IMG/VR virus record: IMGVR_UViG_3300032164_000055
Span: 1 to 29,752 of that record
DNA from: a virus
Strand: one strand, 5' to 3'
DNA: 29,752 bases
Shown: positions 941 to 28,886 of the stretch, one piece after another
How positions within the stretch are numbered: the stretch's first letter is position 1
Layout of the letters: each line of letters begins with the position of its first letter
Position numbers and translations under genes: made by a program
The notes under the pieces: generated by a model
The model's input: only the letters and a program-made list of their open reading frames with translations
Databases searched by the model: none
What the model was told of the DNA's origin: nothing

Positions 941-945
941 AGAAC
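941..945 (-). promoter_or_regulatory. GTTCT element, 7 nt before the initiator-like tRNA
   Basis: GTTCT read on the minus strand, seven bases before the tRNA 5' end at 933. It is the only member of the GTTCT set with a good -35/-10 pair in front of it, and it lies where transcription should begin. Confidence 0.45.
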
Positions 946-951
946 AGGGCC

Positions 952-980
952 AATGTAAATGACCCTCTTTAAAACGTCAA
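952..980 (-). promoter_or_regulatory. Sigma70-like promoter of the tRNA cluster
   Basis: Read on the minus strand: TTGACG (980-975), a 17-base spacer, then TACATT (957-952). The -35 box matches five of six consensus positions and the -10 box four of six, with ideal spacing. The predicted start lies near 945, on the G of the GTTCT pentamer, 12 bases before the mature tRNA 5' end. Confidence 0.65.
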
Positions 981-1015
981 CAATAAATTAAACTTTTTTT
1001 TCAGCCAGCGCAAAA

Positions 1016-1756
1016 TTATTTCTTTTTCCACGGCCACGTCAGCATCATCATCCGTTTAGGCGCAAAACCAAGGCCAGTGAAGTGATAAACGTAGGCTTGC
1101 ATGCCCGGTTTGTCCAGGTCTGGAAAAATAATGTTCCAAGTTTCGGGGACGAGCACCAACTTTACGCTTGAGCTGCTCTGCACAATCCAGTTGAACATGG
1201 CCTGTTCGTGCCAGCCGTACGTGCCGAAAATGCCTTCGGCGCAAACTCCAGGCTTGCGGAAGTCGTTGGCGGTCAGAAGCCTTGTTTCTTGCGCCAGGCG
1301 CTCGAAAATACCGAGGTGCATTTCGCTGGCAAGAAAGAAGCCCCCGTTGAAGAAACGGTCCAAGTAGACCGCAGGATCACACGTTTTGCCAAATCGGACC
1401 TGCATCTCCTCGATCCAGTTCGCGCGCACTACGAGGCGGGCTAGGTCGCGGTAACGTTGACTGAAGCGTTCCGAATCGTCGCGGACGGCAACGAATTCGT
1501 CGTAGCCGTAGATGTCAAACGGGTTTGGGGCTTGGTCAGAGATCAGGCAGTCAGCATCGTAGTAAAGGTACCGTTCATAGCCCCGCAGCGAGACGACCCG
1601 TCCAAACTTCTCGAATGAGGGAGCGAGGTGGGGTTCACGACGGTGGGTGCATTCCACGTAGTCGCACCCCCAGCGCTGGGCGGCGGCCAGGTGACTGGCC
1701 CGCGCGTTAGGGCACATGAAGTCGTTGAAATTGATCGTGAAAAATACTTTGTCCAT
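1016..1756 (-). CDS. GT-A fold glycosyltransferase (GT8-like)
   Basis: A 246-residue protein. The N terminus MDKVFFTINFND and the later YLYYDADC (DxD at residues 67-69) fit a GT-A nucleotide-sugar glycosyltransferase, in which the two aspartates bind the metal and UDP-sugar. Downstream, FFNGGFFLAS and GWHEQAMFNWIV resemble the acceptor and metal-binding blocks of GT8-type enzymes. The length is usual for the fold. The frame is open back to 1861, but the longer start would translate through the terminator at 1771-1808, so the ATG at 1756 is preferred; it lies eight bases after a GTTCT element. The substrate is unknown: phage DNA, a virion protein or host surface glycan are all possible. It is the last gene of the left minus-strand group. 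Confidence 0.75.
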   Translation of the reverse strand: MDKVFFTINFNDFMCPNARASHLAAAQRWGCDYVECTHRREPHLAPSFEKFGRVVSLRGYERYLYYDADCLISDQAPNPFDIYGYDEFVAVRDDSERFSQRYRDLARLVVRANWIEEMQVRFGKTCDPAVYLDRFFNGGFFLASEMHLGIFERLAQETRLLTANDFRKPGVCAEGIFGTYGWHEQAMFNWIVQSSSSVKLVLVPETWNIIFPDLDKPGMQAYVYHFTGLGFAPKRMMMLTWPWKKK

Positions 1757-1764
1757 ACGGTGAA

Positions 1765-1769
1765 AGAAC
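1765..1769 (-). promoter_or_regulatory. GTTCT element, 8 nt before the glycosyltransferase
   Basis: The minus strand reads GTTCTTTCACCGT then ATG. It lies directly after the T-run of the terminator at 1771-1808, so transcription of the glycosyltransferase must either read through or start about here. No Shine-Dalgarno sequence is present. Confidence 0.4.
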
Positions 1770-1770
1770 A

Positions 1771-1808
1771 GAAAAGAAAGAGCGCGGTGCCTACGAAACA
1801 CCGCGCTC
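1771..1808 (-). terminator. Intrinsic terminator after the phosphatase gene
   Basis: GAGCGCGGTG (1808-1799 on the minus strand) pairs perfectly over 10 bp with CACCGCGCTC (1789-1780) around a 9-base loop. It is followed by TTTCTTTTC. It lies between the phosphatase stop (1875) and the glycosyltransferase start (1756) and should end the upstream minus-strand operon. Confidence 0.85.
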
Positions 1809-1874
1809 AGGGGCGGTCCGTTGCGGATCGCCGTCCACCAGTTGGTCAAGCGGGCCAACACGCGAATTTTTTTT

Positions 1875-2312: not shown

Positions 2313-2327
2313 AAGAACGGCGTTCTT
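2313..2327 (-). promoter_or_regulatory. GTTCT element inside the palindrome AAGAAC-GCC-GTTCTT
   Basis: The minus strand reads AAGAACGCCGTTCTT, a perfect 6-bp inverted repeat with a 3-base spacer, ending seven bases before the phosphatase ATG if counted from GTTCT. It could be an operator, or a hairpin in the leader. There is no Shine-Dalgarno sequence in front of this start. Confidence 0.45.
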
Positions 2328-2696: not shown

Positions 2697-2704
2697 CCCC
2701 CTAA

Positions 2705-2938
2705 CTAGTGTTTTGGGCCGCGCAACACTCTGTTGTTAACGGGATCGATGGGGTACCACCGTTTGTCGATGCGGTCAAAGGCTTGGGTGATACCACGTTG
2801 TCTGGCTTCGGGCAAGATGTCCCGTAATTGTCCGTGCAGCTTTTTTCCGTCAAGGAGTTGGATCATCCATTGGGCAGACGGGATGGACGGAACATTGTCG
2901 GGGCTAGTCCTTTTCAGGGCATAATTGGTTCGGCTCAT
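2705..2938 (-). CDS. Small protein of unknown function
   Basis: A 77-residue, basic, soluble protein (MSRTNYALKRTS...RGPKH). I recognise no family. The central AQWMIQLLDGKKLHGQLRDILPEARQRGI is helical in character, and the C terminus is positively charged, which would fit a nucleic-acid or virion contact. It starts 24 bases after the metallopeptidase stop, with a GTTCT element seven bases before the ATG, and ends eight bases before the next gene. Tight spacing on both sides supports a real gene. Confidence 0.6.
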   Translation of the reverse strand: MSRTNYALKRTSPDNVPSIPSAQWMIQLLDGKKLHGQLRDILPEARQRGITQAFDRIDKRWYPIDPVNNRVLRGPKH

Positions 2939-2945: not shown

Positions 2946-2950
2946 AGAAC
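2946..2950 (-). promoter_or_regulatory. GTTCT element, 7 nt before the 77-aa gene
   Basis: The minus strand reads GTTCTACCCAGT then ATG, in the 24-base gap between two genes, with no Shine-Dalgarno sequence. Confidence 0.35.
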
Positions 2951-3790: not shown

Positions 3791-4417
3791 CTAGGGGTTT
3801 CCGTCTACCCAGAAGCCAAAGGCTTCCGCCAAATCGGCCCGAAACTGTTCGCGGGCCTTTTCCGTCGTGCTGCGCAGGACGTAGGCAGGGTGCCAGGTAG
3901 GCAGTACGGGCCAATTCTTGAATGTTCGGTATGTGCCTCTCACCTCGCTTATCGATTCGTTGACGCCAAGGCTTTCCAAAGCCGTGCTGCCGAGGGTGAT
4001 GATGATGCCCGGGTCGAGGATCTCAATCTGGGCGTACAGGTAAGACAAGCATTCCACCAGTTCTATCTTGGCAGGAGCACGGTTGGAAACGCCTAGCGGA
4101 GGGTTTGGGCGGCACTTGAGGGCATTGGCCAGAAAGACGTCTTTGCGCTCGATCTCAAATTCGGCCAGGACCTCCATTAGCAGTTGACCAGCTCGGCCCA
4201 CGAAAGGCAGGCCGATGGCGTCCTCGTCCATTCCAGGGGCCTCGCCGATGAAAAGTACGCCATCCCGCCGAACGGAACCCTCCCCGGGCACCGCGAGCGT
4301 GCGCACTTTGCTTAAAGGGCATCGCTGGCAGGTAACGATTTGGCGTTCGAGGTAGGCAAGGCGCTCGGCGATCGTGGCCCCAGAGTACCTAGCGAGGGCA
4401 ATGGAATCTGTTCTCAC
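3791..4417 (-). CDS. Uracil-DNA glycosylase, 4Fe-4S (family 4) type
   Basis: A 208-residue enzyme of the UDG superfamily. Motif A is GEAPGMDED (59-67), followed by GLPFVGRAGQLL, and motif B is HPAY (176-179). Cysteines at 30, 33 (CQRC), 102 (KCRP) and 123 (ECLS) fit the iron-sulfur cluster of family 4 enzymes. The family removes uracil from single- and double-stranded DNA and starts base excision repair. Its presence implies that this phage does not use uracil in place of thymine. The GTG start at 4417 keeps the full family length and lies eight bases after a GTTCT element. It is divergent from the small membrane protein gene at 4441, with 23 bases between the two starts, and is first in the left minus-strand operon. 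Confidence 0.9.
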   Translation of the reverse strand: MRTDSIALARYSGATIAERLAYLERQIVTCQRCPLSKVRTLAVPGEGSVRRDGVLFIGEAPGMDEDAIGLPFVGRAGQLLMEVLAEFEIERKDVFLANALKCRPNPPLGVSNRAPAKIELVECLSYLYAQIEILDPGIIITLGSTALESLGVNESISEVRGTYRTFKNWPVLPTWHPAYVLRSTTEKAREQFRADLAEAFGFWVDGNP

Positions 4418-4425: not shown

Positions 4426-4430
4426 AGAAC
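4426..4430 (-). promoter_or_regulatory. GTTCT element, 8 nt before the uracil-DNA glycosylase
   Basis: The minus strand reads GTTCTTTCACC then AA and GTG, nearly the same 11 bases as in front of the glycosyltransferase. It lies in the short gap between two divergent genes. Confidence 0.45.
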
Positions 4431-8744: not shown

Positions 8745-8841
8745 AAGTCACAAGTAACTGATAGCCAGCACAATCCAGGCTTAATTATTTTGGGGTTCGG
8801 CATGCTATTTTGAGCCGAGTAATTAGGGGAAAAGGCTCATT

Positions 8842-9216
8842 ATGCCCGTGAAAATATCGAAGATTGATGGCAAGTTCAGGGTTTCGACGCCAAATCAAAC
8901 CCACGCGTTTGGAACAACTAAGGCCAAAGCCAAGAGGCAAAAAAATTTGCTCAACGCGGTCGATCACGGATGGCGTCCAACAGGGCGGCCCGCGCGCGAG
9001 TCGATCCTGGCCGACGCCCACGCCCTGGTGGACCACCTCTTGGCCGAGGACGAAGACACGGATCAAGATCCCGACAAGCCGCTGGAGCGGCACCACACCG
9101 AGCCAACGAAACTGCGCGGGGGCCGCTACGGCAAGGGCGTGCAGGGCAAGGGTAAGACGAGTGGTAAGTTTACGTTTCCTGGGAACTACCGGGTGGGCCA
9201 TGCAATCAAGAACTGA
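8842..9216 (+). CDS. Small basic phage protein, unknown function
   Basis: A 124-residue protein. The first 45 residues (VKISKIDGKFRVSTPNQTHAFGTTKAKAKRQKNLLNAVDHGW) have a strand-strand-helix pattern seen in many small phage proteins, in which a substrate-like beta hairpin precedes TTkkKAekQ..LL.A. After a linker there is an acidic helix (HALVDHLLAEDEDTDQD) and a Gly/Lys-rich tail. AGGGG lies about 13 bases before the ATG. It overlaps the next gene by 17 bases in another frame. A longer open frame starting at 8864 crosses it but begins inside this gene and lacks its own leader. Confidence 0.65.
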   Translation: MPVKISKIDGKFRVSTPNQTHAFGTTKAKAKRQKNLLNAVDHGWRPTGRPARESILADAHALVDHLLAEDEDTDQDPDKPLERHHTEPTKLRGGRYGKGVQGKGKTSGKFTFPGNYRVGHAIKN

Positions 9217-12928: not shown

Positions 12929-13741
12929 ATGCCTGCAAATTTAAAGCGAAAAAGCTATCCAGGCTGTGGCCGTTTGATTGTTCTACAGCAGCAGGGCAAT
13001 CGACCTCTGTACGACTTGAATGCTACCGAGAACTACCAGGGCATGGTATCGATAAATTTCCCCGCGATGCCTGAAACTATTGAGTTGGTCCGAACAACGG
13101 ATTACCAAGTAGTCACCAACCCAGCTTTTCCTGACGGCATTCATCAGTATAAGGGCACTTCGCCCTTAAAAATTCCAGTTAAATTTGAGCTGCACGCCTT
13201 CGATAAGGAGTACTGCCCCAGAGGCGTTTTAAGTCTTTTGCAAGTTGCGTCAGAATTGCATGCCTTAACTCTTCCATTTGGACCAGAAACTGCACTCGTC
13301 CAGGCAGGTGAGGCCGCGACAACGGTAGATGGCTCTGAAAAAGGCCAAATTCACAATGCTGATCCCAATTCTCCTGCGGGGCGGCTAGAGGGCACCGGAT
13401 ACAACATTTATCCACCAGCTACGTGTTACCTGGAACTGATTATTACCGACCGCACTTCCCCAGGCATTGCTTGTATAGGTTACGTGTCCGAAGTAAATGT
13501 TACCCTGCACGGTCCCTGGCTGCGGGGGCCGGGCGTTGCGCGCAACCTTCCAACGCGCGGTGACTTTTCCTTCACGTTTGTCCACCACCCTGGCCATGGT
13601 AATACCTGGAACTTTGGTCAAAAGGACTACACTGATCAAATGGAGGCCTCGGCCTATGCGAATACGGTCAAAGAGAGGCTGTTTAATACCCACCACCTGC
13701 TGACGCACACCAACTACCATGGGTTTAACGACCCGCTTTAG
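12929..13741 (+). CDS. Tail/baseplate protein after the tape measure (gp48-like position)
   Basis: A 270-residue beta-rich protein. The part ETIELVRTTDYQVV...YKGTSPLKIPVKFELHAFDKEY (about 50-92) followed by RGVLSLLQVASELHALTLPF has the look of tail-tube-derived or baseplate-tube proteins that describe forces along a tail axis. T4 has gene 48, the tube cap/initiator, just after its tape measure gene 29; the position is the same here. The assignment rests on synteny and general character, not on a motif. It ends by overlapping the stop of the convergent SbcC-like gene by four bases. Confidence 0.5.
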   Translation: MPANLKRKSYPGCGRLIVLQQQGNRPLYDLNATENYQGMVSINFPAMPETIELVRTTDYQVVTNPAFPDGIHQYKGTSPLKIPVKFELHAFDKEYCPRGVLSLLQVASELHALTLPFGPETALVQAGEAATTVDGSEKGQIHNADPNSPAGRLEGTGYNIYPPATCYLELIITDRTSPGIACIGYVSEVNVTLHGPWLRGPGVARNLPTRGDFSFTFVHHPGHGNTWNFGQKDYTDQMEASAYANTVKERLFNTHHLLTHTNYHGFNDPL

Positions 13742-15678
13742 TCCCAGCGATAGGTGGTGCCCGTGGTCTCCTTTACCGCCGTCAGGATGTAATCGGCGTA
13801 CGACGCTGCCTCGGGAGTGTGGCTGACCACAAAAATCAAGATGCCGTAGCGGCTGGCGATCTCCTTCATGTAAGCCAGCGCCGAACGGCGCGCTCCCTCT
13901 TCCTGGTTGGCCAGGATCTCGTCGTACCATCGGTAGCCAATCCGCGCAGCAACACCGCCTACTTCGGCCAGGGTTTCCGCGACGATAAGGTTTGTCAGGC
14001 TGGCCTCACCCTTGGAGTTCCCCTCCACGCGGCTGGCCCCGTCAGGGTTGTCCACCGTGATGTTCAATTCGGCCTTGTCACGGCCAGACACAAGCTCGCG
14101 TGAGGTGCTGTAGTTGACCTGGATGCAACCGCCTGTCATCAGCGTGCTTATGCGGCGCGAAGTCTCGTTCAGTGGGCCAATGGTGTCGCGCAGGATCATG
14201 TTCGGAATGCCCGCTGGTCCGAAAGCTTCCTGCCAGTACACCGCTACTTGCAGCGCCTGCTCGTCCTCTACAATTTTAGCCGCTGAGTCGTCTACCGCCT
14301 TCTGGGCGCGTTTTAGATGAATCAGCCTCTCTTTGATTGATGTTTGGGCCTCGATAATCCTCGACTTGTCTGGTCCTTTTCCGTACCGAGCCACGTCGCA
14401 CTCCTGGTTGGCCACGTCTTCGTAAACTTTACGGTTGGTCAATTCCAGATCCTCATACTCCTGGCTCAGCTCGTCCACCGGGGCCTCGGCGCGCAGATCA
14501 GCCAGATTCGTTTCAATTTCTTTCAGTTTGGCCTCTGCTTCGTTTACGGTTTTACCTTTGGCTTGGGTCAGGCCCGAGGCAACGATCAGGGCAGTCTGCG
14601 CCGTTTTGACAGCGGCCTGGGCTTCGCTAAGGCTGGCCTGGGATGCTTGCTCTTCCCAAGGCTTGCCGCAGGTGGGACAGTTTTTTGGGGCGGATTGAAG
14701 GGTGGCCAGATCTTTACGGCAACGGGCCAAGGTCGTTTGGGCGCTCGACTCCGTCGCTTTCAGTGTGGATCGGCTGTCTTTGGCTGCTTCGCATTTATCC
14801 CAGGCGCTGTTGCGCTCGATCTCCAGCGCATGCTCTTTTTCCGCATTGATGCCGATGCGCCGATCAATTTCTTTTTTGATGGTGGCCATTTTCGTTTCGT
14901 TAACGGAAATGGTGCTGCGGCTGTCTTTCAGTCTGGCTTTGGAAACGGCCAAATTGACTTGGTAGGTTTTTGCCTCTTCTTCGTAAACATTTTTTGCTTC
15001 GTCCAGTGAGGCTTGGGCGGCTTCCAAGTCCGTGTTCCGTTCCGCCAAATCGTCTTGGAGATGCTGGTGGCTGTCGCGGCTGGTGCGCAGGTCATTCTTA
15101 AAGCGGTTGACGGTTTGATTGGCTTTGGCCAAGTAATCCGTCCAGGGCGGCTGGGCGAGGGCTGCCATCAGTATTTCGACCGAACTGCGCTGGCTGAGGC
15201 TGCTAAACTTGAGGGAATCACCGTCCAAATACACCGTCCAGGCCGCCAGGTCGGCGGGCACCGTCAGAATTTTGGCTAGGTCAGAGCGGGTGTTGGCAAG
15301 CCGATCCCGCCAAACCTGTTGGCCGTCATAGGTGAAGCGCAGCGCTTCGCTGTCTGGATTTAGCTCTGGGGCTTTGAAGCCAGTTTCGACTTGGAGACTT
15401 TTGCCTTTGTGGGTGCAGTTGAGCACCACCAGGGTGTTGCCCTGCCCTTTGTAGCTGTAGCTGCCCAGCAACGAGTAACGGCCTGGCACGCCCAGGAGAG
15501 TGCGGCTGATCGCCTCTCCCAGGCTCGTTTTCCCCGAGCCGATTGTGCGTAATTTGCTCTTTGACACCAGGTTAAGGCCCTGCACGACAACGAGGCCTTT
15601 TTCTGGAAAGACCAAGGTGGCTTCGCGCACAGTAGCCCAATTGCGGAGCGTGATCGATTTAAGGCACGTGTCAGACAT
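13738..15678 (-). CDS. SbcC/Rad50-type ATPase (T4 gp46-like)
   Basis: A 646-residue ABC-type ATPase with a split head and a central coiled coil. The P loop is GSGKTS (47-52), preceded by QGLN with ten extra residues (LVSKSKLRTI) between N36 and G47. The zinc hook is CPTC (334-337) in mid coiled coil. The C-terminal head has a signature-like NSKGEAS, a Walker B-like YDEIL and the H-loop VVSHTPE. The family works with a nuclease partner (SbcD, Mre11 or gp47) in end processing and recombination. No such partner lies in this window. The ATG is eight bases after a GTTCT element, and the gene is divergent from the SWIM protein gene. Confidence 0.88.
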   Translation of the reverse strand: MSDTCLKSITLRNWATVREATLVFPEKGLVVVQGLNLVSKSKLRTIGSGKTSLGEAISRTLLGVPGRYSLLGSYSYKGQGNTLVVLNCTHKGKSLQVETGFKAPELNPDSEALRFTYDGQQVWRDRLANTRSDLAKILTVPADLAAWTVYLDGDSLKFSSLSQRSSVEILMAALAQPPWTDYLAKANQTVNRFKNDLRTSRDSHQHLQDDLAERNTDLEAAQASLDEAKNVYEEEAKTYQVNLAVSKARLKDSRSTISVNETKMATIKKEIDRRIGINAEKEHALEIERNSAWDKCEAAKDSRSTLKATESSAQTTLARCRKDLATLQSAPKNCPTCGKPWEEQASQASLSEAQAAVKTAQTALIVASGLTQAKGKTVNEAEAKLKEIETNLADLRAEAPVDELSQEYEDLELTNRKVYEDVANQECDVARYGKGPDKSRIIEAQTSIKERLIHLKRAQKAVDDSAAKIVEDEQALQVAVYWQEAFGPAGIPNMILRDTIGPLNETSRRISTLMTGGCIQVNYSTSRELVSGRDKAELNITVDNPDGASRVEGNSKGEASLTNLIVAETLAEVGGVAARIGYRWYDEILANQEEGARRSALAYMKEIASRYGILIFVVSHTPEAASYADYILTAVKETTGTTYRWD

Positions 15679-15686: not shown

Positions 15687-15691
15687 AGAAC
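15687..15691 (-). promoter_or_regulatory. GTTCT element, 8 nt before the SbcC-like gene
   Basis: The minus strand reads CGTTCTTCCA then TCTG and ATG, with the same ten bases as in front of the phosphatase (CGTTCTTCCA). It lies in the gap between divergent genes, and no Shine-Dalgarno sequence is seen. Confidence 0.45.
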
Positions 15692-17670: not shown

Positions 17671-19008
17671 TTAGCCTTCGGGCGCTAGGGCCAAATTGGT
17701 GTCTTGGACCGTTCGGTAAACCCCATTGCCTACGGCTACTCCAGAACCTGTGGTTAATTGAGACGCTCGGGCAGTTTGCAGGTTTAAGTCGTAGCCCGGG
17801 GCATTCTGTTCGTCTTCCAGCAGGTTTATTCCTTGATCGAGCAGGGCATTGGATTGGCCCTTAAGCGCCGTGAGCTCACCGCGATGCAAAATGTAAACGG
17901 AAGTTAGTTGGGACTTGCGCACCAAATGTTCTGCGCTGGCGACCAGCCACAATCCTGACCAGGTCGAGGACTGGCCTGACTTAGGATCAAGGTCAATGTT
18001 GAGAATATCGCCCGCGCGCAGAGGCCTGGTTTTGCTTGTCTGGAACCTGAGCCGATAGGTTTCCGCCCTCGCCGATTCGTACATGTTCTGGGCCAAATTG
18101 ACGGCTTCCAAACCCCTGTTTTCGCTGAGGTGAAAAGGAAAATTGCGTTGTGCTCCGCTGACATTGTCCAGGCGCGATATCCAGTTGGAAAAGCGGGTCG
18201 CATTGCCGGGTACGCTGTTGACCTCCTGGGACTGACCGGTGTAGGGGTCGTGTCCTACCAAGCGGACGCCTGCGGAACCGGCGCTGATGCGTTCTTGGGG
18301 AAGATCTGTCATCTCCAGTCGGCTGGCGGCGCTGTTGTAGTAGGCAAAGTTCTTGACCTCAGACTGATAATCCACCGTGTGGAAGTGAAGGACGTTGTCG
18401 CGCATGAAAAACAGGTAATTGCCCCGCCCACGCGTGCTGCGGGCAATGCGGACCATGCGCCTGCGCACGAAATCAAAGTCCCCGCAGTAACTTTGAATCC
18501 AGAGCCCCTCTGTGTCCGTAGGCTCGATAACCCGATCCGAAATTCCGTTTCTGTCGGCTATTTTGGTCACAATGTCGCTGACTTTGCCCCGGTGGGCCGA
18601 GGTGCGACTGGATCGATCGATCTGGCCCAGGATATCGACTGTGTGGAGATTTATGAAGTGGCCAGCTGTGGGGCCTACGCCCTCAAACAGGCCACTGTAG
18701 CGTTTGACGTAGTGCAGTTGCCACGGCGACCAAACAACGTTGTCGGAGGTGCCAGTTCCGAGGCGAAACCGCAGCAGTGGGGTGCCATTGGCTTCCAGGG
18801 CCTTTAAGACGCGGTCGGCGTAATCGGCGCTGACGGTGTGGATCGCCAGGTCGCTGACCCCATATCCGTAAACATTTTCACTTATGTGGGCCGAATCGAA
18901 GCGAACAATGGAACTGTTCAGCCCCAGGGTATTACTAGACGGCAGAAGCAGCTCGTAGTTGACAAAGGCCTGTCCTTCGACGGGCGCGGTAATATTTTCG
19001 TTGGCCAC
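17671..19008 (-). CDS. Baseplate hub protein (gpD / gp27-like)
   Basis: A 445-residue protein. The order of elements is that of gpD/gp27/VgrG N-terminal hub domains: an N-terminal beta domain, a middle section with HRGKVSDIVTKIADRNGI (about 140-157), SYCGDFDFVRRRMVRIARSTRGRGNYLFFMRDNVLHFHTVD, and a late LRFQTSKTRPLRAGDILNIDL strand block. Such hubs form a trimer joining the tail tube to the spike encoded at 28891-29752. It starts with GTG, with no clear ribosome binding signal. It stands on the minus strand among plus-strand structural genes, 12 bases after the small acidic gene. The assignment rests on sequence character and the presence of the other hub parts. Confidence 0.65.
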   Translation of the reverse strand: MANENITAPVEGQAFVNYELLLPSSNTLGLNSSIVRFDSAHISENVYGYGVSDLAIHTVSADYADRVLKALEANGTPLLRFRLGTGTSDNVVWSPWQLHYVKRYSGLFEGVGPTAGHFINLHTVDILGQIDRSSRTSAHRGKVSDIVTKIADRNGISDRVIEPTDTEGLWIQSYCGDFDFVRRRMVRIARSTRGRGNYLFFMRDNVLHFHTVDYQSEVKNFAYYNSAASRLEMTDLPQERISAGSAGVRLVGHDPYTGQSQEVNSVPGNATRFSNWISRLDNVSGAQRNFPFHLSENRGLEAVNLAQNMYESARAETYRLRFQTSKTRPLRAGDILNIDLDPKSGQSSTWSGLWLVASAEHLVRKSQLTSVYILHRGELTALKGQSNALLDQGINLLEDEQNAPGYDLNLQTARASQLTTGSGVAVGNGVYRTVQDTNLALAPEG

Positions 19009-19020
19009 GCTTTAACTAGG

Positions 19021-19320
19021 TCAGACCTCGTCCACTGTCGCAAAGACCTGTTCCAGGGTGTCAATCACGCGCTCGTCCAGCGACAGGCCGTAGAGTTCGA
19101 TCGCGGCATTTTTTGGTTCGTTTAAGGCGACGAAGAACTGTTCCACGGTAGCAGGAGAGTCCAACAGAAGCAGGCACTCGGCGCTGTCAATTATCAGCGT
19201 TTCGTCTTCAACATCCAGGTAAATTATGGCCTGGCTGTCAGGGATGGCCTGCACGCTGCTGTCAGTCACAGTTTCCTTCAGTTCTTCCAAGAGGTGAACT
19301 AACGCGATAGGCTTTTGCAT
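19021..19320 (-). CDS. Small acidic protein, unknown
   Basis: A 99-residue acidic protein (MQKPIALVHLLEELKETVTDSS...ERVIDTLEQVFATVDEV) with alternating helix and strand character. It lies just upstream of the hub gene on the same strand, 12 bases apart, which may mean a chaperone or assembly partner of the hub; this is inferred from position only. It is divergent from the neck-type gene at 19337, with only 16 bases between the starts. Confidence 0.5.
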   Translation of the reverse strand: MQKPIALVHLLEELKETVTDSSVQAIPDSQAIIYLDVEDETLIIDSAECLLLLDSPATVEQFFVALNEPKNAAIELYGLSLDERVIDTLEQVFATVDEV

Positions 19321-19336
19321 CGTCTATAGTTAGGTT

Positions 19337-19894
19337 GTGCGCTTTCTTGAACGCAAAGAGTGGACGTTTGACCCGCTGGCTTTTGGACGAGCTGATACCC
19401 AGACAGCACTCCGAATCCATCGGGAAGCCACGCGTAAATTTTCGCCAAGGCCCCCTCCCCGCTTCTTCGAGGTAGACCACGCCAGCTGCAAAATTGACTC
19501 GCTATGGCACGTTCCATTGGACAACAGAACGGTATTCAGCCGAACGCTGGACATCCCAGCCGTCAATAAATTCCAAAAGCCTGACTGGCGCTTGACCAAA
19601 ATGGGAATTGTGCCCCAGCGCCGCGACAGTTTTATTCTCGATCATCTACTGCTGCAAGAGTTTGACTACTTTCCCGTCCGAGGTGACATGGTATTCTTTA
19701 ACGGCTACCGCTACATGGTCATAGGCGTGGTGCTGGCCCCAGAAGGCTACTGGCAGCAAACGGGGGTCTGGATGGGGCTGAGCGTGGACTGCATTATTCC
19801 ACCCGAGGGCGACGCCCGTCCGCAGCCCGACCTGAGCGTTGCAGCCCCCAGCGAGATGCCGGTCGTGGCAAAGGGGCCACTTCCTGAGGTATGA
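19337..19894 (+). CDS. Putative neck or head-tail connector protein (gp14-like)
   Basis: A 185-residue protein starting at GTG. The segment RRDSFILDHLLLQEFDYFPVRGDMVFFNGYRYMVIGVVLAPEGYWQQTGVWMGLSVDCII (about 95-155) has the pattern of T4 gp14-type neck proteins, in which a P-R-x-G-D turn precedes strands with a YxI or YMVIGV block. No motif is decisive. A proline-rich segment (FSPRPPPRFFEVD) lies near residue 35. It overlaps the next gene as ATGA. It lies 16 bases from the divergent acidic gene, so the two starts share regulatory sequence. Confidence 0.45.
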   Translation: MRFLERKEWTFDPLAFGRADTQTALRIHREATRKFSPRPPPRFFEVDHASCKIDSLWHVPLDNRTVFSRTLDIPAVNKFQKPDWRLTKMGIVPQRRDSFILDHLLLQEFDYFPVRGDMVFFNGYRYMVIGVVLAPEGYWQQTGVWMGLSVDCIIPPEGDARPQPDLSVAAPSEMPVVAKGPLPEV

Positions 19895-20568: not shown

Positions 20569-20606
20569 AAAAGCCAGTCGTTTGTTGGAACAAACGACTG
20601 GCTTTT
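20569..20606 (+). terminator. Strong intrinsic terminator
   Basis: AAAAGCCAGTCGTTTG (20569-20584) is perfectly complementary over 16 bp to 20591-20606, with the 6-base loop TTGGAA. The A-run on one side and T-run on the other (CTTTTCATTTT) let it work in either direction. It separates the neck-type group from the sheath operon, which therefore needs its own promoter or antitermination. Confidence 0.92.
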
Positions 20607-20624
20607 CATTTTGCTACTTAAGGC

Positions 20625-21947
20625 ATGCCGATCAATCGACCGGATAAGGTGATGGATGTGAGGCCGGGCAGCCTCGACGTCACGTCGATGCGCTACCATG
20701 AACTTTGGTTGCAGCGCTGGCTGTACGCCCACTTTTATGTTCGGGAGGGATATCCAGTGCCAGTGGTCTTCAGCACGCCCATGGATGCGTTCTCTTTGTT
20801 TTCCAAGCTTTGGGCCGACGAGAGCAATCCTTTCGCTTACCTTTTCGGCCTGAAAGATGCCCAGGGGACGCCGCTGTACGAACCCTATCCTTCGCCTGTG
20901 CGCTATCCGTTGATTTCGGTGTCACGCCAGGGCATAAAGTTGCGCTCTTACCAGAATTTCTCCACGCATCGTTGGCGGCACTTGAATTGGCCTACGGTAA
21001 GTGACACTCAGGCCGTCCCGGGCAAAGTTCAGGTGGGGAACGATCTCACCAAGTGCCAGTTGGGTGAGGTGATGGTTTCGCGCATGCCAATGGCCTTCGA
21101 TTACCGGTTTCAAATCGACCACTTTTGCCTGCGTCCCGATACCCAGGCCTACTTTATCGAGAAGCTGCTGAACCAATTTTGGCGCACCGGCGGTGGAATT
21201 TTGCAGACCTGGATGGACATCGAGTACCCAGGGTGGGGCCACCAGTACATCCGAATTTACGCCGAAGGCGATATTGACAACCGCCCTCCAGACGAGACGG
21301 CTAACCAGGATAAGCATGTTGAATTTCGAACCTCGTTCACGCTGGTGATCGAGGGCTTTGATATCGACGTAGCGTACAAAACGTTCCCTGCGCTGTGGAA
21401 GCTGGTGGCCACCAGTGCTCGGATAGACGACTTGGATCGGCTGCTTTTGCCTTCGTTTACAACCGATCTTAGAGTGAACGGCACCAATCAGGTTTTGGAT
21501 AGCCGTGTTGACATCCCGCCGTCAGGAACCTGCCAGTCCAGCATTCGTTACAACGACTATATCGAAAGTGGCAGCCAGCACATCTATGCAGGCATGACGC
21601 TGGGAGGTGGAACGGTCACTTACGCGTCTTACGGCACAGGCACCAATGCCATGGCCCAATACGTGGCCACGGGATCGGTGGTGTCCGCCGAGGCAGACGT
21701 TTTTGGCACCTACTTGATGACCGTTTTTATCAAGCATGGAACCTTTAGCGGGACGGCCTCTAGCACGACCACGACTTTTGGCACCTACGAAAGCGCAATT
21801 GTAGGCGCGGTGGCTGGCCCCGATCAGTTCGCCATGACGGTAAGTACTGTGGGAACGTCCTTGCTCATGGTCTGGGGCACAGATGCGGGCACGGACGCTT
21901 GGGCAAGCGTAAGCAGTTCTGTTTTCGGCACATATCAATTGGCATAG
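20625..21947 (+). CDS. Putative tail completion / sheath-end protein
   Basis: A 440-residue protein. The first 265 residues form a conserved-looking unit: RYHELWLQRWLYAHFYVREGYPVPVVFSTPMDAFSLFSKLW, PYPSPVRYPLISVSRQG, FSTHRWRHLNWPTV and a long beta part. It resembles a family in large phages that I associate with tail completion (T4 gp15-like), but no motif proves this. The last 150 residues are a Thr/Ser/Gly-rich beta region with three FGTY copies, unlike the rest, perhaps a surface-exposed extension. It begins 18 bases after the terminator; the next gene starts one base after its stop. Confidence 0.5.
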   Translation: MPINRPDKVMDVRPGSLDVTSMRYHELWLQRWLYAHFYVREGYPVPVVFSTPMDAFSLFSKLWADESNPFAYLFGLKDAQGTPLYEPYPSPVRYPLISVSRQGIKLRSYQNFSTHRWRHLNWPTVSDTQAVPGKVQVGNDLTKCQLGEVMVSRMPMAFDYRFQIDHFCLRPDTQAYFIEKLLNQFWRTGGGILQTWMDIEYPGWGHQYIRIYAEGDIDNRPPDETANQDKHVEFRTSFTLVIEGFDIDVAYKTFPALWKLVATSARIDDLDRLLLPSFTTDLRVNGTNQVLDSRVDIPPSGTCQSSIRYNDYIESGSQHIYAGMTLGGGTVTYASYGTGTNAMAQYVATGSVVSAEADVFGTYLMTVFIKHGTFSGTASSTTTTFGTYESAIVGAVAGPDQFAMTVSTVGTSLLMVWGTDAGTDAWASVSSSVFGTYQLA

Positions 21948-23182: not shown

Positions 23183-23224
23183 ATGGCGAACAAGATGTCG
23201 CGAAAGAAAAACAGAGGTAAGTAA
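23183..23224 (+). CDS. Possible 13-aa leader peptide before the sheath gene
   Basis: ATG to TAA encodes MANKMSRKKNRGK, very basic. Its stop lies three bases before the sheath ATG, and the sheath Shine-Dalgarno sequence AGAGGT (23213-23218) lies inside it. The first three codons give MAN, as in the sheath. It could be a coupling peptide or a chance frame. Confidence 0.3.
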   Translation: MANKMSRKKNRGK

Positions 23225-23227
23225 AGT

Positions 23228-25519
23228 ATGGCAAACAATATTACCGCCAAAACGTTCCCCGGCGTTTACACGAAGATCGTGGACCGAAGCTTTTTGATTC
23301 CGCAGGTGAGCCGGTTTCGTTGCGGGCTCGTCGGCGTTGCGCGCAAAGGGCCTTTCGACACCCCCACTGCGGTTCACTCGCTCACTGAATTTTTGGACAC
23401 GTTTGGACTTCCGTTGGACGGCCAGTACTATCTGGCCAACGCGGTGGCCATCCTGTCCGACATCACCGACGGTATGAAGGTGGTGCGCGTGGGCAAGCAC
23501 CTCCTGGAAAATTCGGGGGCGAAGTTTTATGCGACTACGGCGGAATCGGTCGGCACCATCGCTGGTTATCGCGAGGCCTTGATTTTGAGCCCTACGTTCC
23601 AGGGAGACGTGGTGTACGCCACAATGAAGCAGGCGGGCAAGCCGAGCACCGTCAATGCCCAGGTTGACTCCGTTGGAACCATCACGGATCACCCCACGCT
23701 TTCGGACGCCGCCTTGGTTCGGTTCACGATGAACGCAGGCGATCCGTTTCCAGTCAAAGCGGCCTACGACAGCGCGGGAGCGGACGTTTACTATTCGGTG
23801 GGTGTGCCAGGGGCCAATTCTGCTGAAGCCGTCTTGTACACCACAACGTACGGGTCCAACTCGACGGATTACGAGGACAATCCCATCTATGGTGGCCCGC
23901 TGGCCTTGACCTGTTCTGGCCAGAAAGGTGCCTACGAATTTCAGTTGAGCGCCGCCTGCATCCCGCAGTACGGAGCGCTGGTGGCAAACGACCGCTTGAA
24001 GATCAAGCAGCCCTACCGGTCCACAACCTGGGAAGTCATGGTGAAGCAAGTTTTGCCCACGGGTGTGGTCAAACTTGAAACCAGCGACCGCACGGACAAG
24101 GGATACCAAGCCCTGTCGCTGCAAGACAACTACACCAATGCCACAATCCACCGCAGCTCGGGCAAAGTCGCGCACCTGTACTTGCAGGCTGCCTCAGCAG
24201 GTGATTGGGCAAACGGTGAAGACCCCAGCACGGGATTGTTCGTAAAAGTTCGGCCTGGCGGCCCTTCAGGCACCAAGAAGCTTGAAGTTTACGAAAATGG
24301 CGCTCTTCGGGAAACGATCGACGGCTTGTTTGACGGCGCGAGCACGGGCACAAACAGCTATGTTTCGCGCATCAATGCCAAGTCGGCCTACATCACTGTG
24401 TCCGAGGTCTTTAGCTCTCCGAGTACTGACCCTACCACGCAGTTTATCCCGGCCAATTATGCCTACGGTTGGGCTAGCGGGACGCCGGTTAACGCTGGAG
24501 TCGGCGATAGCGGCGGCTGTTTCAGAGGCGGCTACAACGGTGAGGCCGCGTCCTCTACCGACTTCGTTGGTGGATTCGATACGACGACGGAGCGTTTCAC
24601 GGGTATCCAGTCCTTTGTGGACACCGACAACGTCAAGATCGACATCTTGGCCTGCCCTGGCATCACGGATGCCACGCCTGGCTCGACGCCAAACGATACC
24701 TATGAGCCGTTTAGCGATGCGGACACGACGGGCGTCCATCGCAAGATGGCGGAGGTGGCGCGGGCCGTCAATGCCTTGGCCTTGATCGAGGTACCGCCCG
24801 GCATCAATGCACGAGGCGCGGTTGATTGGCACAACGGCACGGGTCTCTACTCGGGACGTGGCCGAATCGATAGCTGCAATATTTCCTGCTTCTGGAACTG
24901 GTTTACGATCACTGATCCGTTTACGCAGGAAGACAAGTGGGTTCCGCCCACCTTGGGCGCACTGCGCTGTCTGGCCTACACCTTCGACCGCGATAAGCCC
25001 TGGTACGTGGCAGCGGGCGACATTCGCGGGCTTATCCCTGAGGCCAAGACGGTTGAATTTGAGCACGTTAGCGAGGAAACGAAGCAGGCGATGTACGGTA
25101 ATGGCCAGTCGGTCAATCCGATATTGCTGGATGGCGGGCAGATCAAGATCTGGGGCGAGCGCACGATGCAGATCGCCGAAAGCCGCCTGTCGGCTAACCA
25201 CAACGTGATTCTCGTCAATTACGTGGTCAGCAACTTGGCCACTGTTGGCCGTAGGTTCGTATTCGAACCCAACGATCCTGAGCTGTTGATGCGTGTTCAC
25301 TTGGCCTTCACTGAGTTTTTGGAAAAGGTCAAAACCGAACGGGGCCTTGAAGATTACAACTTGGTGATCGACAGCAGCAACAATAACGCGGACACCCGCA
25401 ACCGGCGCGAAGTTATTGTTGATTTGGCCCTGGTTCCTACGGAATCCGTTGAGCGGATTTACATCACGGCTACGGTCTTTGCCAGCGGGGCGAAGATTAA
25501 CGCGCTTACGTCGGAATAG
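23228..25519 (+). CDS. Tail sheath protein
   Basis: A 763-residue contractile sheath protein. The N terminus reads FPGVYTKIVDRSF, the usual sheath start. The C-terminal 200 residues carry the conserved domain: QSVNPILLDGGQIKIWGERTM, ANHNVILVNYVVSNLATVGRRFVFEPNDPELLMRVHLAFTEFL, GLEDYNLVIDSSNNNADTRNRREVIVDLALVPTESVERIYI. The core domain fixes the subunit to tube and neighbours; the middle insertion domains (about 150-450) are expected on the surface. It is longer than T4 gp18 (659 residues), with the extra length in the middle. The ribosome binding site AGAGGT is ten bases before the ATG, one of the two best in the window, fitting very high expression. The tube gene follows after 18 bases. Confidence 0.95.
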   Translation: MANNITAKTFPGVYTKIVDRSFLIPQVSRFRCGLVGVARKGPFDTPTAVHSLTEFLDTFGLPLDGQYYLANAVAILSDITDGMKVVRVGKHLLENSGAKFYATTAESVGTIAGYREALILSPTFQGDVVYATMKQAGKPSTVNAQVDSVGTITDHPTLSDAALVRFTMNAGDPFPVKAAYDSAGADVYYSVGVPGANSAEAVLYTTTYGSNSTDYEDNPIYGGPLALTCSGQKGAYEFQLSAACIPQYGALVANDRLKIKQPYRSTTWEVMVKQVLPTGVVKLETSDRTDKGYQALSLQDNYTNATIHRSSGKVAHLYLQAASAGDWANGEDPSTGLFVKVRPGGPSGTKKLEVYENGALRETIDGLFDGASTGTNSYVSRINAKSAYITVSEVFSSPSTDPTTQFIPANYAYGWASGTPVNAGVGDSGGCFRGGYNGEAASSTDFVGGFDTTTERFTGIQSFVDTDNVKIDILACPGITDATPGSTPNDTYEPFSDADTTGVHRKMAEVARAVNALALIEVPPGINARGAVDWHNGTGLYSGRGRIDSCNISCFWNWFTITDPFTQEDKWVPPTLGALRCLAYTFDRDKPWYVAAGDIRGLIPEAKTVEFEHVSEETKQAMYGNGQSVNPILLDGGQIKIWGERTMQIAESRLSANHNVILVNYVVSNLATVGRRFVFEPNDPELLMRVHLAFTEFLEKVKTERGLEDYNLVIDSSNNNADTRNRREVIVDLALVPTESVERIYITATVFASGAKINALTSE

Positions 25520-25537: not shown

Positions 25538-26149
25538 ATGGCATTTCTAAACTACAAGAATGCGTTTGCATCTCAGGTCGATGGTTCTCAGTTGGACCTT
25601 CAACGCGCTGACCTCTTCAAGGTAGTGCTGGAGCTGCCTAGGGCTCTAGGACTCAGGTGGGATGAGCATGTGGAGTTTGCCGTGGAGAAGTTCCCCTTCC
25701 CCGATCGGCAAAAAGAGGTCATTCCCATAAAGTACATGCAGCAGACCAACCTCATGATTGGAGCCGACGCGGCCATGTCGCCGGTTGAAATCCCCGTGCG
25801 CTACGCTTTTGCGCAGCGCACAGCGGAAGCCCTGGAAAAGTGGTTTTACCTGATTGCCAACCCCCTCACCGGCGGCACTGGCCTTACCTCTGCGGTCAAG
25901 TGCATGGGGGAGGTATGGTGGATGGTGCCGAATCAGGCGAAGCAAGAAGCAGACGTATCTGGCACGCCCATGCCAAATGAAGCGACCATGATTCCAGGAG
26001 CACACTACGTTTTGGAAGGTTGCTGGATCAAAGGTTTGTCCTTCATCGAAGCCGACGTTATGGCCAATGCTTACGTCAACATGAAGTTCACGCTCCAGTG
26101 CGACCGCTGGTACCCCAAAAACATTGATAGCCTTCAATTTCTAGGATGA
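25538..26149 (+). CDS. Tail tube protein
   Basis: A 203-residue protein directly after the sheath gene, the usual order (T4 genes 18 and 19). Its length and beta-rich make-up suit a gp19-type tube monomer: DLFKVVLELPRALGL, FPFPDRQKEVIPIKYMQQTNLMIGADAAMSPVEIPVRYAF, RTAEALEKWFYLIANP, then late strands GCWIKGLSFIEADVMANAYVNMKFTLQCDRWYP. Tube monomers stack as hexameric rings inside the sheath. The leader AAAGG is seven bases before the ATG, a strong site. Its stop overlaps the next start (ATGA). Confidence 0.88.
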   Translation: MAFLNYKNAFASQVDGSQLDLQRADLFKVVLELPRALGLRWDEHVEFAVEKFPFPDRQKEVIPIKYMQQTNLMIGADAAMSPVEIPVRYAFAQRTAEALEKWFYLIANPLTGGTGLTSAVKCMGEVWWMVPNQAKQEADVSGTPMPNEATMIPGAHYVLEGCWIKGLSFIEADVMANAYVNMKFTLQCDRWYPKNIDSLQFLG

Positions 26150-26682
26150 GACCCGAGGGATTAGTTACCGTCAGCCGAATCGTTGACTCGACTGGGAAAG
26201 TTATCCCGATCGAGGATGCAATTCGCTATGGCTGGCTGCCTCGCGAAGTGGAGCCTGTGCCTCCTGGGTGGGGAGTTGGGCGCGACGAGGCGTGTCTTGG
26301 GCGCAACCTATACACCGACCAGGGACGGCAGCTGTTGGCCTATGCCTTTGCTTTTCGGTCCCCGATCCAAAATTTCGTTTGCAGCAAGTTTGGGGTGGGA
26401 ACAGGAACGGCGTCGGCCAACGCCTCTGACGTGGCGCTGGAAGCCCCTGTGGCCCTGGCAAGCGGCAGTTTAGTTGGCTCAGTGGACAGCATCGATTTTC
26501 TGTCCGCGTTCGTGGTTCGGATCGCCTTCACCCTGGGCTTGGCCGATTGCAACGGTAGCCTGCTAACCGAGCAGGGCTTGTTTTCGGGCAACGATTCATT
26601 GATCGCGCGACGGGTCCGAACGGTGGGTATCGCAAAGGATTCTACTTTTTCCCCCTCGTTTACTTGGCGCGTTCGTTTTTAG
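26146..26682 (+). CDS. Putative virion protein coupled to the tube gene
   Basis: A 178-residue protein. The N-terminal 50 residues include IVDSTGKVIPIEDAIRYGWLP. From NLYTDQGRQLLAYAFAFR to FGVGTGTASANASDVALEAPV it follows the same pattern as the 396-aa product at 21949 and other phage tail proteins. The end (SLIARRVRTVGIAKDSTFSPSFTWRVRF) is a typical closing strand. The start overlaps the tube stop. Its place in the particle is unknown. Confidence 0.55.
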   Translation: MRPEGLVTVSRIVDSTGKVIPIEDAIRYGWLPREVEPVPPGWGVGRDEACLGRNLYTDQGRQLLAYAFAFRSPIQNFVCSKFGVGTGTASANASDVALEAPVALASGSLVGSVDSIDFLSAFVVRIAFTLGLADCNGSLLTEQGLFSGNDSLIARRVRTVGIAKDSTFSPSFTWRVRF

Positions 26683-26709: not shown

Positions 26710-27066
26710 ATGATTATTCACTGCACAGATGGCGCAGTTGTGGGCGAAACTTCATCGGTCATGTTTACGATCGGCCCCCAGCAAGGTCCTATCGCCGCGC
26801 TGCTGGTTCTCAAGAACTCTGGGGTGAATACGCTCAACTACCGGCTCCAAGAATTTAACGGATCAACGTGGGTTGACCTGGGTGCCTCGGGAACCGACTT
26901 TTACACAACCCTCAGTGCTAATGAGGTTCGGGCGTTCAAGGTGACCTCCACCTATCCTCAGGTCCAATGTGTGGCTAATGCGAGTGGCGGGGCTTACCTG
27001 GACATTTCGCTGACGAGGTACTACAACCGGCCTTCGGGCGGCTCGTTCCCGATCCTCGCCCTCTAA
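26710..27066 (+). CDS. Small beta-rich virion-type protein
   Basis: A 118-residue protein with strands throughout (AALLVLKNSGVNTLNYRLQEFNGSTWVDLGASG, TLSANEVRAFKVTSTYPQVQCVANASGGAYLDISLTRYYNR). The LKNSGVNTLNYRLQE segment is typical of small immunoglobulin-like phage proteins, such as head or tail decoration. It is last in the sheath operon, and its stop overlaps the convergent nuclease gene by four bases. No family is named. Confidence 0.55.
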   Translation: MIIHCTDGAVVGETSSVMFTIGPQQGPIAALLVLKNSGVNTLNYRLQEFNGSTWVDLGASGTDFYTTLSANEVRAFKVTSTYPQVQCVANASGGAYLDISLTRYYNRPSGGSFPILAL

Positions 27067-27935
27067 TCTTTGGGGATATCCTCTTCGTCGCCATCGATAA
27101 CAGTGGCGGTGCGCTTGCTGTACCGACGGTAAAAAGGTCGATAAAAGTCCATCAGCCCAGGCAAGCGCAACTTTTCGGCCACGGCTAGATCTGCGGGGAC
27201 GATGGGGGCAGGTTCAGGGACATCGGGAACGTCCGTGTGCAGCAGCGTCAGATCCAGATCGGCCAAGAACCCGTCTCGGGTCTGAGCCGGTATTTGAGCC
27301 AAAATAACATCGAATGCTTCCTCGAAGGTCATTTCGGGCGTTACCGCTTCGAACAGCTTTTTTACCTTTGCAGGCCCCCAGCCCTTGATGCCACCTACCA
27401 GGTCCACCTTGTCGCCCAGGATGGCTTGGGCAATGGCTATCTGCCTGGGGCTTTTTACATGCCAGTGATCCAGAATGGCACGGTTATTGAGCACGGCTTT
27501 CTTGTTCAAGGAGTAGTAGAAGGTGTGATGGCCAGCCAGCTGTTGGAGGTCCTTGTCGCCGCTGACCACGTACACAGTGGTATCCTGGGCGCTGTTTTCG
27601 ACTGCCGTGGCCACAATGTCATCGGCTTCGTACCTGTCCGACACGTGCTGGGCGGCATGGAACAGCAGATCAAGGTGCCCTACAACCAGTTCGGCAACGG
27701 CGTAGTAGTCATTGGGCTTGGGCTGCCGGTGCTTGTCGCGCCCCCCAGCGCCATCCCAGGCAAAAAGCAGTCTATCTGGTCGCGATCCTAAATTTCCATT
27801 ATGGTCATTCAGCAGTGCGATGACGGTGTTCAAAGCGGCACACAGGGCGTCGCGGGGATTGCCCGTGGAGGCCTGCACCGCGTAGAAAGCACGGGCGTAA
27901 ACGCTGTTGCCGTCAACGATAAGATCTGTGGTCAT
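27063..27935 (-). CDS. 5'-nuclease, FEN / T4 RNase H type
   Basis: A 290-residue protein of the 5'-3' exonuclease/flap endonuclease family. Metal-binding acids are visible: D8 (IVDGN), D61, E103/D105/D106 (YEADDIVATA), D127 and D129 (VVSGDKDLQQL), D175 and D178 in GDKVDLVGGIKGWGPAKVKKL, which is the helix-three-turn-helix DNA-binding block. The enzyme removes RNA primers and 5' flaps during lagging-strand synthesis. The last 70 residues, with a proline-rich stretch (PDVPEPAPIVP), are less conserved. The start overlaps the previous stop (AAATGA). It is the last gene of the right-hand minus-strand operon with the baseplate hub genes, an odd place for a replication enzyme. Confidence 0.92.
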   Translation of the reverse strand: MTTDLIVDGNSVYARAFYAVQASTGNPRDALCAALNTVIALLNDHNGNLGSRPDRLLFAWDGAGGRDKHRQPKPNDYYAVAELVVGHLDLLFHAAQHVSDRYEADDIVATAVENSAQDTTVYVVSGDKDLQQLAGHHTFYYSLNKKAVLNNRAILDHWHVKSPRQIAIAQAILGDKVDLVGGIKGWGPAKVKKLFEAVTPEMTFEEAFDVILAQIPAQTRDGFLADLDLTLLHTDVPDVPEPAPIVPADLAVAEKLRLPGLMDFYRPFYRRYSKRTATVIDGDEEDIPKD

Positions 27936-28126
27936 TTAGAGGCTAGGTTTTTGTTGTCCTCCACGAGGCGTTCGTTGCGCCAGGTTGTAAACAGGTCCAG
28001 GACATGGTCAGACAGCGTGGCCAGATCAACGACAAAGCCCTTATTGTCGTCCCAGGCGAGATTGAATATTTGCCGCCAGCGCTCGTCTATCCGCGCCGAG
28101 GCGGCCCGAACGAAAAAACTCGGCAT
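27932..28126 (-). CDS. gp51-position small protein, overlapping frame (possible frameshift product)
   Basis: A 64-residue frame (MPSFFVRAASARIDERWRQIFNLAWDDNKGFVVDLATLSDHVLDLFTTWRNERLVEDNKNLASK). It starts inside the end of the gp26-like gene and overlaps it by 86 bases. In T4, gene 51 (baseplate hub assembly) follows gene 26. The ATG has no leader of its own. A run of six T (28118-28113 on the minus strand) lies just after the start, in codons TTT TTT C of the upstream frame. A +1 slip there would fuse this frame to the gp26-like protein. The long helix after residue 10 is plausible for an assembly factor. Alternatives are independent initiation, or a real frame broken by an indel. Confidence 0.55.
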   Translation of the reverse strand: MPSFFVRAASARIDERWRQIFNLAWDDNKGFVVDLATLSDHVLDLFTTWRNERLVEDNKNLASK

Positions 28127-28874
28127 CGAGGGTCATGCGGAAGTAGTATAGGTAGCCACAGTGTGTACAGCGCTGGGGCAGCCTAAGGTCAAGGTGAGGC
28201 GTCAGCAAATCTTCTTGCTGCTCCAAAAAGGCGGCATCACCTGTGGGAAGGGCCAAGTACCACTGCACCATTTCTTGGATGCGTTCAGGCTGCGTTCCGT
28301 TTACGCTAACAATGCCCGCAATTGCGTGGGCAATGTGATCAGAAACCAGAGCCTTGTTTTCGGGAGCGCGGCTGCCTATCTTCAGTTCGTCCTCCACGCG
28401 CAGCGGCCTGAGTTCGATGACGTCCTGGCATTTGGGAAGCGTTAAACTATCCGATCCCTTGTAGTCTGGGCCTTTTGGGCTGATGCAGGTCAAATCCTCC
28501 GATCTTATTTTGTCCACTTCTTCGTTGGCGCAGTCGGGGCAGATTGCTCCGTACTCGATGTAGCTGTCATTTTGGATCGAACGAGAGCACAGCAGCACGG
28601 CATTTACGTCGCCGAGGACAAAATCGTTCAAAAGGCAGCCGTTGAGGTTGCTGACCTTGGCTAGCACATTAAACAGAGCGCCCTGCTTCTCTTCTGGAGT
28701 TCCGCGCTGCATGGTGGTGTTCAGCCAGTCGTCCACGATCGAATCCCACGGAAAGACGGTTATTTTTCCGTCAGGAAAGGCTGTTCGATTGGCATAACCA
28801 CCCGAGGGTAGCACGATCTCCTTTTTGTCTTTTTCGCGGCGGGGCCGCATATCGGATATGTTTGATTTGAGCAT
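28041..28874 (-). CDS. Baseplate hub protein, T4 gp26-like
   Basis: A 277-residue protein. CPDC (112-115) and CTHC (236-239) give a four-cysteine zinc site, as in the T4 gp26 baseplate family, and the closing CGYLYYFRMTLDAEFF is a typical late element. In T4-like phages such proteins act in hub assembly rather than as major structural parts. A GTG 24 bases upstream (overlapping the spike stop) is possible; ATG at 28874 is preferred, being seven bases after a GTTCT element and giving a sensible N terminus. It follows the spike gene and overlaps the gp51-position frame. The last 23 residues past EFF are Arg/Ala-rich and may be the unshifted end product only. Confidence 0.75.
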   Translation of the reverse strand: MLKSNISDMRPRREKDKKEIVLPSGGYANRTAFPDGKITVFPWDSIVDDWLNTTMQRGTPEEKQGALFNVLAKVSNLNGCLLNDFVLGDVNAVLLCSRSIQNDSYIEYGAICPDCANEEVDKIRSEDLTCISPKGPDYKGSDSLTLPKCQDVIELRPLRVEDELKIGSRAPENKALVSDHIAHAIAGIVSVNGTQPERIQEMVQWYLALPTGDAAFLEQQEDLLTPHLDLRLPQRCTHCGYLYYFRMTLDAEFFRSGRLGADRRALAANIQSRLGRQ

Positions 28875-28881
28875 GCGATAT

Positions 28882-28886
28882 AGAAC
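28882..28886 (-). promoter_or_regulatory. GTTCT element, 7 nt before the gp26-like gene
   Basis: The minus strand reads CGTTCTATATCGC then ATG. The spike stop codon lies just upstream, so this site is at the very end of the spike gene. Confidence 0.35.

Follow-up and report, generated by a model that had tools for sequence, protein, structure and literature searches.

Two short boxes as probable core promoter elements of two gene classes in a family of large uncultured phages

Introduction

Why should the same five nucleotides stand at almost the same distance in front of non-homologous genes, and in front of a tRNA as well? The question is raised by a viral sequence of 29,752 nucleotides (nt) in IMG/VR (record IMGVR_UViG_3300032164_000055), which we call the window in its full length of 29.8 kilobases (kb). 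It comes from a large contractile-tailed phage and carries sheath, tube, SbcC-like and uracil-DNA glycosylase genes. An initial annotation had pointed out that the pentamer GTTCT precedes six minus-strand genes and an initiator-like tRNA. A transcription start site with a leader of about 12 bases, a phage-specific promoter and a processing site were offered as explanations.

Our analysis establishes computationally that GTTCT (box A) is one of two boxes and that the second one (box B) stands at virion genes; it also establishes the spacing of the boxes, their conservation and their division into classes. We consider it likely that each box is the core promoter element of one of two expression classes in this family of large, uncultured phages, and that transcription would begin on the start codon or no more than about 5 nt upstream.

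Methods

Relatives of the window were drawn from IMG/VR by way of the SbcC and sheath proteins; a megablast comparison of the window with the phage collection returned no related sequence. The large relatives, analyzed in full length, are G004 (203 kb), G006 (83 kb), G009 (211 kb), G010 (108 kb), G011 (129 kb) and G012 (144 kb), to which we added several fragments. Genes were called with a simple home-made caller that uses codon usage and is blind to motifs. The gene starts are those of this caller, and the starts of the SbcC, sheath and hub genes are consistent across alignments. We give distances as counted from the box's G to the gene's first base. The Acidobacteria jumbo phage Tunturi_5 served as control genome. 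We had also considered it as a possible relative and rejected it, since it has neither box and an ordinary AGGAG. All inference is sequence-based and concerns uncultured contigs.

Results

Box A is unusual in its placement, not in its number. The window contains 43 GTTCT sites, where 49 are expected. Five of the 35 called genes nevertheless have one at 12 or 13 nt, against an expectation of 0.07 (first-order Markov p = 1.2e-8), and in 2000 dinucleotide shuffles of the window the mean was 0.069 and the maximum 2. When all ATGs that open reading frames (ORFs) of at least 70 amino acids (aa) are scored, GTTCT is the top pentamer at this spacing (7; runner-up 4). The consensus is cGTTCTta, often with AnAT and CC in front. 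The coordinates and spacings of the seven sites in the initial annotation are all correct (Table 1), and so are the longer matches that occur twice each, GTTCTTTCACC (1765, 4426) and CGTTCTTCCA (2314, 15687). Its chance estimate of about 0.04 hits had the right order of magnitude. Neither PHROGs nor Pfam supports the name glycosyltransferase that it gave to the gene at 1016-1756.

The same ATG scoring makes GTTCT the top pentamer in G004 (23; runner-up 16). There the sites are found on both strands (11 plus, 12 minus), so the remark that no plus-strand gene has the pentamer is true of the window and fails in the relatives. In the IMG/VR relatives of 83-211 kb, GTTCT ranks first or close to first among pentamers for enrichment at a spacing of 12-13 nt. 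It occurs there 21 times in G004 (0.37 expected), 13 times in G009 (0.48), 10 times in G011 (0.23), 6 times in G012 (0.30) and 4 times each in G006 (0.14) and G010 (0.16). In Tunturi_5 there are 0 such sites for 0.62 expected, and a strong Shine-Dalgarno signal instead. The enrichment over chance expectation is present in the window and likewise in the six large relatives, in all of which both A and B are enriched genome-wide. A 238-kb contig with a 42% identical SbcC (L167, IMGVR_UViG_3300037264_008423) shows neither box in the 17.9 kb examined; hence the box trait is not tied everywhere to the SbcC gene.

Box B emerged from a motif search over upstream regions, which found GTAGTTAAGG at other genes in a position equivalent to that of A. 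The box can be written GTAGTTAAGGC, with the consensus GTAGTTA. At 11-15 nt it occurs 28 times in G009, 16 times in G004 and 14 times in G011, exact matches that underestimate variants, and it has zero occurrences in Tunturi_5. Exact GTAGTTA or GTACTTA is absent within 50 nt of starts in the window, which has B-like copies (Table 1). The orthologues of the gene at 20625 and of the sheath gene carry an exact B in several relatives. In many phages whose sheath genes are 39-62% identical to that of the window, B is intact, mostly 22-31 nt from the ATG and in a few 11 nt. Sheath genes at no more than 32% identity have ordinary Shine-Dalgarno sequences. The initial annotation overlooked this second, equally common box of the virion genes, including the B-like copies in the window. 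We found no third motif at genes without a box.

The two boxes divide the genes by function. In G004, A precedes the genes for DNA polymerase A, DnaB helicase, a second helicase, primase, a replication-initiation-like protein and SbcC, and also those for a GroES-like protein, a nucleotidyltransferase-like protein and the baseplate hub. B precedes the genes for the sheath, the portal and a 1762-aa metallophosphatase. The class is kept between orthologues. There are 95 pairs in which both members have A (shuffled mean 17.8, maximum 32), 86 in which both have B (mean 25.1, maximum 48) and only 8 mixed pairs where shuffling gives 42.3, a large deficit, all counted over orthologue pairs that are not independent samples. 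The DNA polymerase gene has A in six of six cases. An exception is the phosphatase gene, which has A in the window and B in G004.

The distances between box and gene start, compiled over 1122 genes, are one-sided. For A, 6 cases in total lie at 1-10 nt and 10, 51, 20, 17 and 11 at 11 to 15 nt, with the mode at 12 and a sharp lower edge. For B, 2 cases in total lie at 1-10 nt and 46, 17, 22, 17, 7 and 6 at 11 to 16 nt; none lies at 17-20 nt, and 19 lie at 21-34 nt, the mode being 11. These distributions fit a transcription start at +11 or +12, with an AUG that would be tolerated 0-5 nt or more than about 10 nt from the 5' end and not in between. Among B genes whose start codon is 13-34 nt away, position 10 is a pyrimidine in 75% and position 11 a purine in 79%. 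This signature, which is that of transcription initiation sites, is kept even when the AUG lies farther away. A Shine-Dalgarno sequence is found at 3 of 234 box genes, compared with 65 of 869 others.

The gene context points in the same direction. Divergent genes less than 60 base pairs (bp) apart must each own a promoter, and a box is present at 23 of 32 divergent neighbors within 60 bp, which supports a promoter role. The count is 31 of 144 for same-strand neighbors at 0-60 bp and 7 of 104 for genes that overlap. In some divergent pairs no more than 14-24 bp separate the two genes, one strand bearing A and the opposite strand B (e.g., CGTTCTTAACTACG, 58145 to 58160 of G004). Where intrinsic terminators lie in gaps between same-strand genes, the hairpins of the five strongest end 16-26 nt short of a start codon, and each time an A or B-like box lies between the two. 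An upstream transcript would end at such an abutting terminator; hence the gene's own transcript must begin in the last bases before the start codon. Upstream of B we see no conservation as far as -60 and no -35 element. The sigma70 consensus (-35 TTGACA, -10 TATAAT) is absent from the aligned upstream regions of A and B, and only the window tRNA resembles it.

Table 1. Boxes and associated features in the window. Distances run from the G of the box to the first base of the gene.
Feature	Position	Strand	Context
A box	941..945	-	12 nt before 5' end of initiator tRNA
A box	1765..1769	-	distance 13 to ATG at 1756; gene 1016-1756
A box	2314..2318	-	distance 12; dual-specificity phosphatase-like gene 1875-2306
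A box	2946..2950	-	distance 12; 77-aa ORF 2705-2938
A box	4426..4430	-	distance 13; uracil-DNA glycosylase 3791-4417
A box	9209..9213	-	distance 12; 138-aa ORF 8785-9201 (doubtful gene, overlaps plus-strand ORFs)
A box	15687..15691	-	distance 13; SbcC-like gene 13738-15678
A box	19526..19530	-	distance 13; 72-aa ORF 19299-19517 (doubtful gene, overlaps other ORFs)
A box	28882..28886	-	distance 12; baseplate-hub (gp26-like) gene 28041-28874
B-like box CTAGTTAGGG	2699..2708	-	before 91-aa ORF 2421-2696
B-like box CTAGTTAAAG	19010..19019	-	before tail protein 17671-19008
B-like box GCTACTTAAGGC	20613..20624	+	before 20625-21947, directly after intrinsic terminator
Diverged B-like box GTAAGTAAAGT	23217..23227	+	before tail sheath
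Intrinsic terminator	1770..1808	-	hairpin 1780-1808 followed by T-rich tract 1770-1779, which leads straight into A box; highest score of all genes scanned
Terminator hairpin	20571..20604	+	upstream of 20625
tRNA-fMet (CAT)	858..933	-	C1 start, CCA end
Tail sheath	23228-25519	+	
Tail tube	25538-26149		

What could read the boxes? A sigma-like protein, 334-339 aa long except in G010, where it was called with 296 aa, is conserved in G004, G006 and G009 to G012 at 39-61% identity. Of its 7 members, 5 match PHROG_836 ("late transcriptional activator"; best 2.5e-6), and there is also a match to PHROG_234 ("late sigma transcription factor"; 4.6e-4). The structural model of the protein is confident for about residues 20-117 and mostly finds sigma factors in both fold libraries, with E around 0.01. 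Host RNA polymerase together with this protein is a good candidate for what might read B, although the proposal is a tentative one. A phage multisubunit RNA polymerase (PF00562) is absent from seven records, with controls positive in 14 of 14. For single-subunit RNA polymerase (PF00940) there was no match, but the control was likewise silent, and the search is thus uninformative. The PF04542 search found a sigma factor in G007 only. This different, sigma70/ECF-like (extracytoplasmic function) gene (25635-26447; L038 5635-6447) lies near the tape measure gene and is preceded by B (GTAGTTAGCGC). In G006 the sigma-like gene (56253-58352; L027 16253-18352) contains an in-frame intein with a LAGLIDADG endonuclease (LAGLIDADG_2 1.6e-17; Intein_splicing 1.1e-6, under the cut-off), which interrupts the sigma region-2-like segment between WF and SKCAKHAF.

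Initiator tRNAs are present in the window, G009, G010 and G011. That of G010 has GTTCT 12 nt before its 5' end, the spacing seen in the window. Transfer-messenger RNA (tmRNA) genes are found in G009 (L178 235-652) and G010 (L185 15386-15811) with Rfam RF00023 (E 1e-49 and 9e-44). They lie a few hundred bases downstream of the initiator tRNA gene, and for both, exceptionally long tag peptides are predicted. In each of the four phage initiator tRNAs a T-A replaces the usual first of three anticodon-stem G-C pairs, and the T-loop of the window tRNA is TGCGACT rather than the usual TTC type. ARAGORN also predicts tRNAs with a CTA anticodon (labeled Pyl) in G011 (11715, minus) and G012 (29006), possible amber suppressors. 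As no more than a hint to the host, nine of the ten best bacterial matches of the window uracil-DNA glycosylase are from Verrucomicrobiota, at 36-41% identity.

Discussion

From these observations we infer a transcriptional role for the boxes and the position at which transcription starts. A and B would stand in for the -10 element, with GTTCT at roughly -12 to -8. RNA polymerase would start 11-12 bp past the G of the box, usually on the start codon or up to 5 nt upstream of it. The mRNAs would then be leaderless or nearly so and would not need a Shine-Dalgarno sequence. A would serve replication and metabolic genes (early or middle) and B virion genes (late). The interpretation in the initial annotation is thus partly supported. 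Of its proposals the phage-specific promoter is the best reading, and it was right to doubt a ribosome binding site. A start at GTTCT with a leader of about 12 bases does not hold up, since the start appears to lie about 12 nt downstream of the G, which would leave a leader of 0-5 nt.

One could also argue that the boxes guide the ribosome itself. A ribosome, perhaps altered by the phage, would bind GUUCU or GUAGUUA some 12 nt upstream of the start codon, which would account for the close spacing and for the lack of Shine-Dalgarno enrichment. We rejected this explanation because of the sheath genes, where the spacing of an intact B is not fixed, because terminators abut boxes, and because boxes stand at the heads of transcription units and not at internal genes. 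Moreover, A has the same spacing before two initiator tRNAs, the class of the box tracks temporal function, and the ribosomal protein bS21 (PF01165) was not found in the first nine records. Altogether this makes ribosome recognition quite improbable. It is even harder to believe that the boxes are sites at which a phage or host RNase cuts longer transcripts. It is true that they are short and strand-specific and that a tRNA is covered too, but the terminators just upstream would halt the longer transcript, divergent genes 14-24 bp apart are each boxed, and the pyrimidine/purine initiator signature is seen.

Suppose instead that A and B are promoters whose start lies in the box or just upstream of it, so that leaders are about 11-16 nt long. 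The sigma70-like site before the window tRNA would start transcription there, and the B genes at 21-34 nt suggest that leaders can be translated. We think this unlikely, as it leaves unexplained the lower limit of 11-12 nt, the empty interval at 17-20 nt for B and the initiator signature at +11. Chance, or common ancestry of a few neighboring genes, could have been invoked for the window, where there are only about seven cases. The pattern replicates in independent genomes, on both strands and at non-homologous genes, which refutes this explanation for practical purposes.

Several points weigh against the promoter interpretation, besides the dependence among orthologue pairs. Neither A nor B has a -35 partner, no factor for A was found, and most called genes are without an exact box. 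The tight spacing between box and start codon would equally suit a translation signal. The assignment of the sigma-like protein has weak profile scores, a mean pLDDT (predicted local distance difference test) of 63 and no PDB match below 1e-3, and a profile-profile comparison (hhalign) with T4 gp55 is weak. Finally, most other tRNAs have no box, for which reason we rejected tRNAs as general targets of A, and in front of the window tRNA there is also a sigma70-like TTGACG-17-TACATT with a predicted start about 12 nt upstream. Given these last two points, the A box at the initiator tRNA is no more than suggestive of a promoter.

If the promoter interpretation is correct, these phages have a family-wide code in which two short boxes determine the start codon as well as the time class and leaders are all but absent. 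This would be unusual, though phage-specific promoters are known. Gene starts, transcription units and expression class could then be read from the sequence alone in phages that have not yet been grown. It would also provide a testable reason for a phage-borne initiator tRNA. Added fMet-tRNA is reported to boost leaderless translation strongly and canonical translation only slightly (PMC9031893). Hence, we propose, as a possibility to which we would give somewhat less than even chances, a dedicated leaderless program: mRNAs from two phage-specific promoter classes have the AUG at their 5' end, and part of the family also supplies an initiator tRNA (and tmRNA) of its own, expressed from a promoter of the same type, which would favor leaderless initiation.

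In the open-access literature we found no published counterpart of the motif or of a leaderless phage program, but there are similarities to known systems. SigmaE recognizes G-12 T C-10 (PMC7598289), and A likewise starts with a G at -12 and has a C nearby. Unlike for ECF sigma factors, A shows no -35, and apart from the sigma70/ECF-like gene of G007 we detected no ECF sigma. The late promoters of phiKZ have the motif TATG, whose G is the start site, and those of AR9 AACA-6N-TA/G (PMC5312081, PMC7598289). As in our phages, short class-specific motifs near the start site are used by large phages. The motifs of phiKZ and AR9 are read by phage multisubunit RNA polymerases, however, and none was found here.

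In bacterial leaderless (TA-led) genes, which have little or no leader, a -10-like signal stands some 12 nt ahead of the start codon (PMC3160421). The modes of 12 nt for A and 11 nt for B agree with this, as does the near absence of Shine-Dalgarno sequences at box genes. GTTCT and GTAGTTA do not fit TANNNT, however; they are phage-specific, and they form two functional classes. T4 late promoters have no upstream or -35 element (PMC2988020). Promoters of this type, which depend on the sigma factor gp55, consist of a short -10-like element without a -35 before virion genes; B, too, has no -35 and stands before virion genes, among them sheath and portal. T4-type promoters are read by a phage sigma factor, and our phages conserve a protein that weakly matches the gp55 family. 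Unlike in T4-type late promoters, the consensus is GTAGTTAAGGC and not TATAAATA, A forms a second class, and the element is placed such that transcription would start at the start codon.

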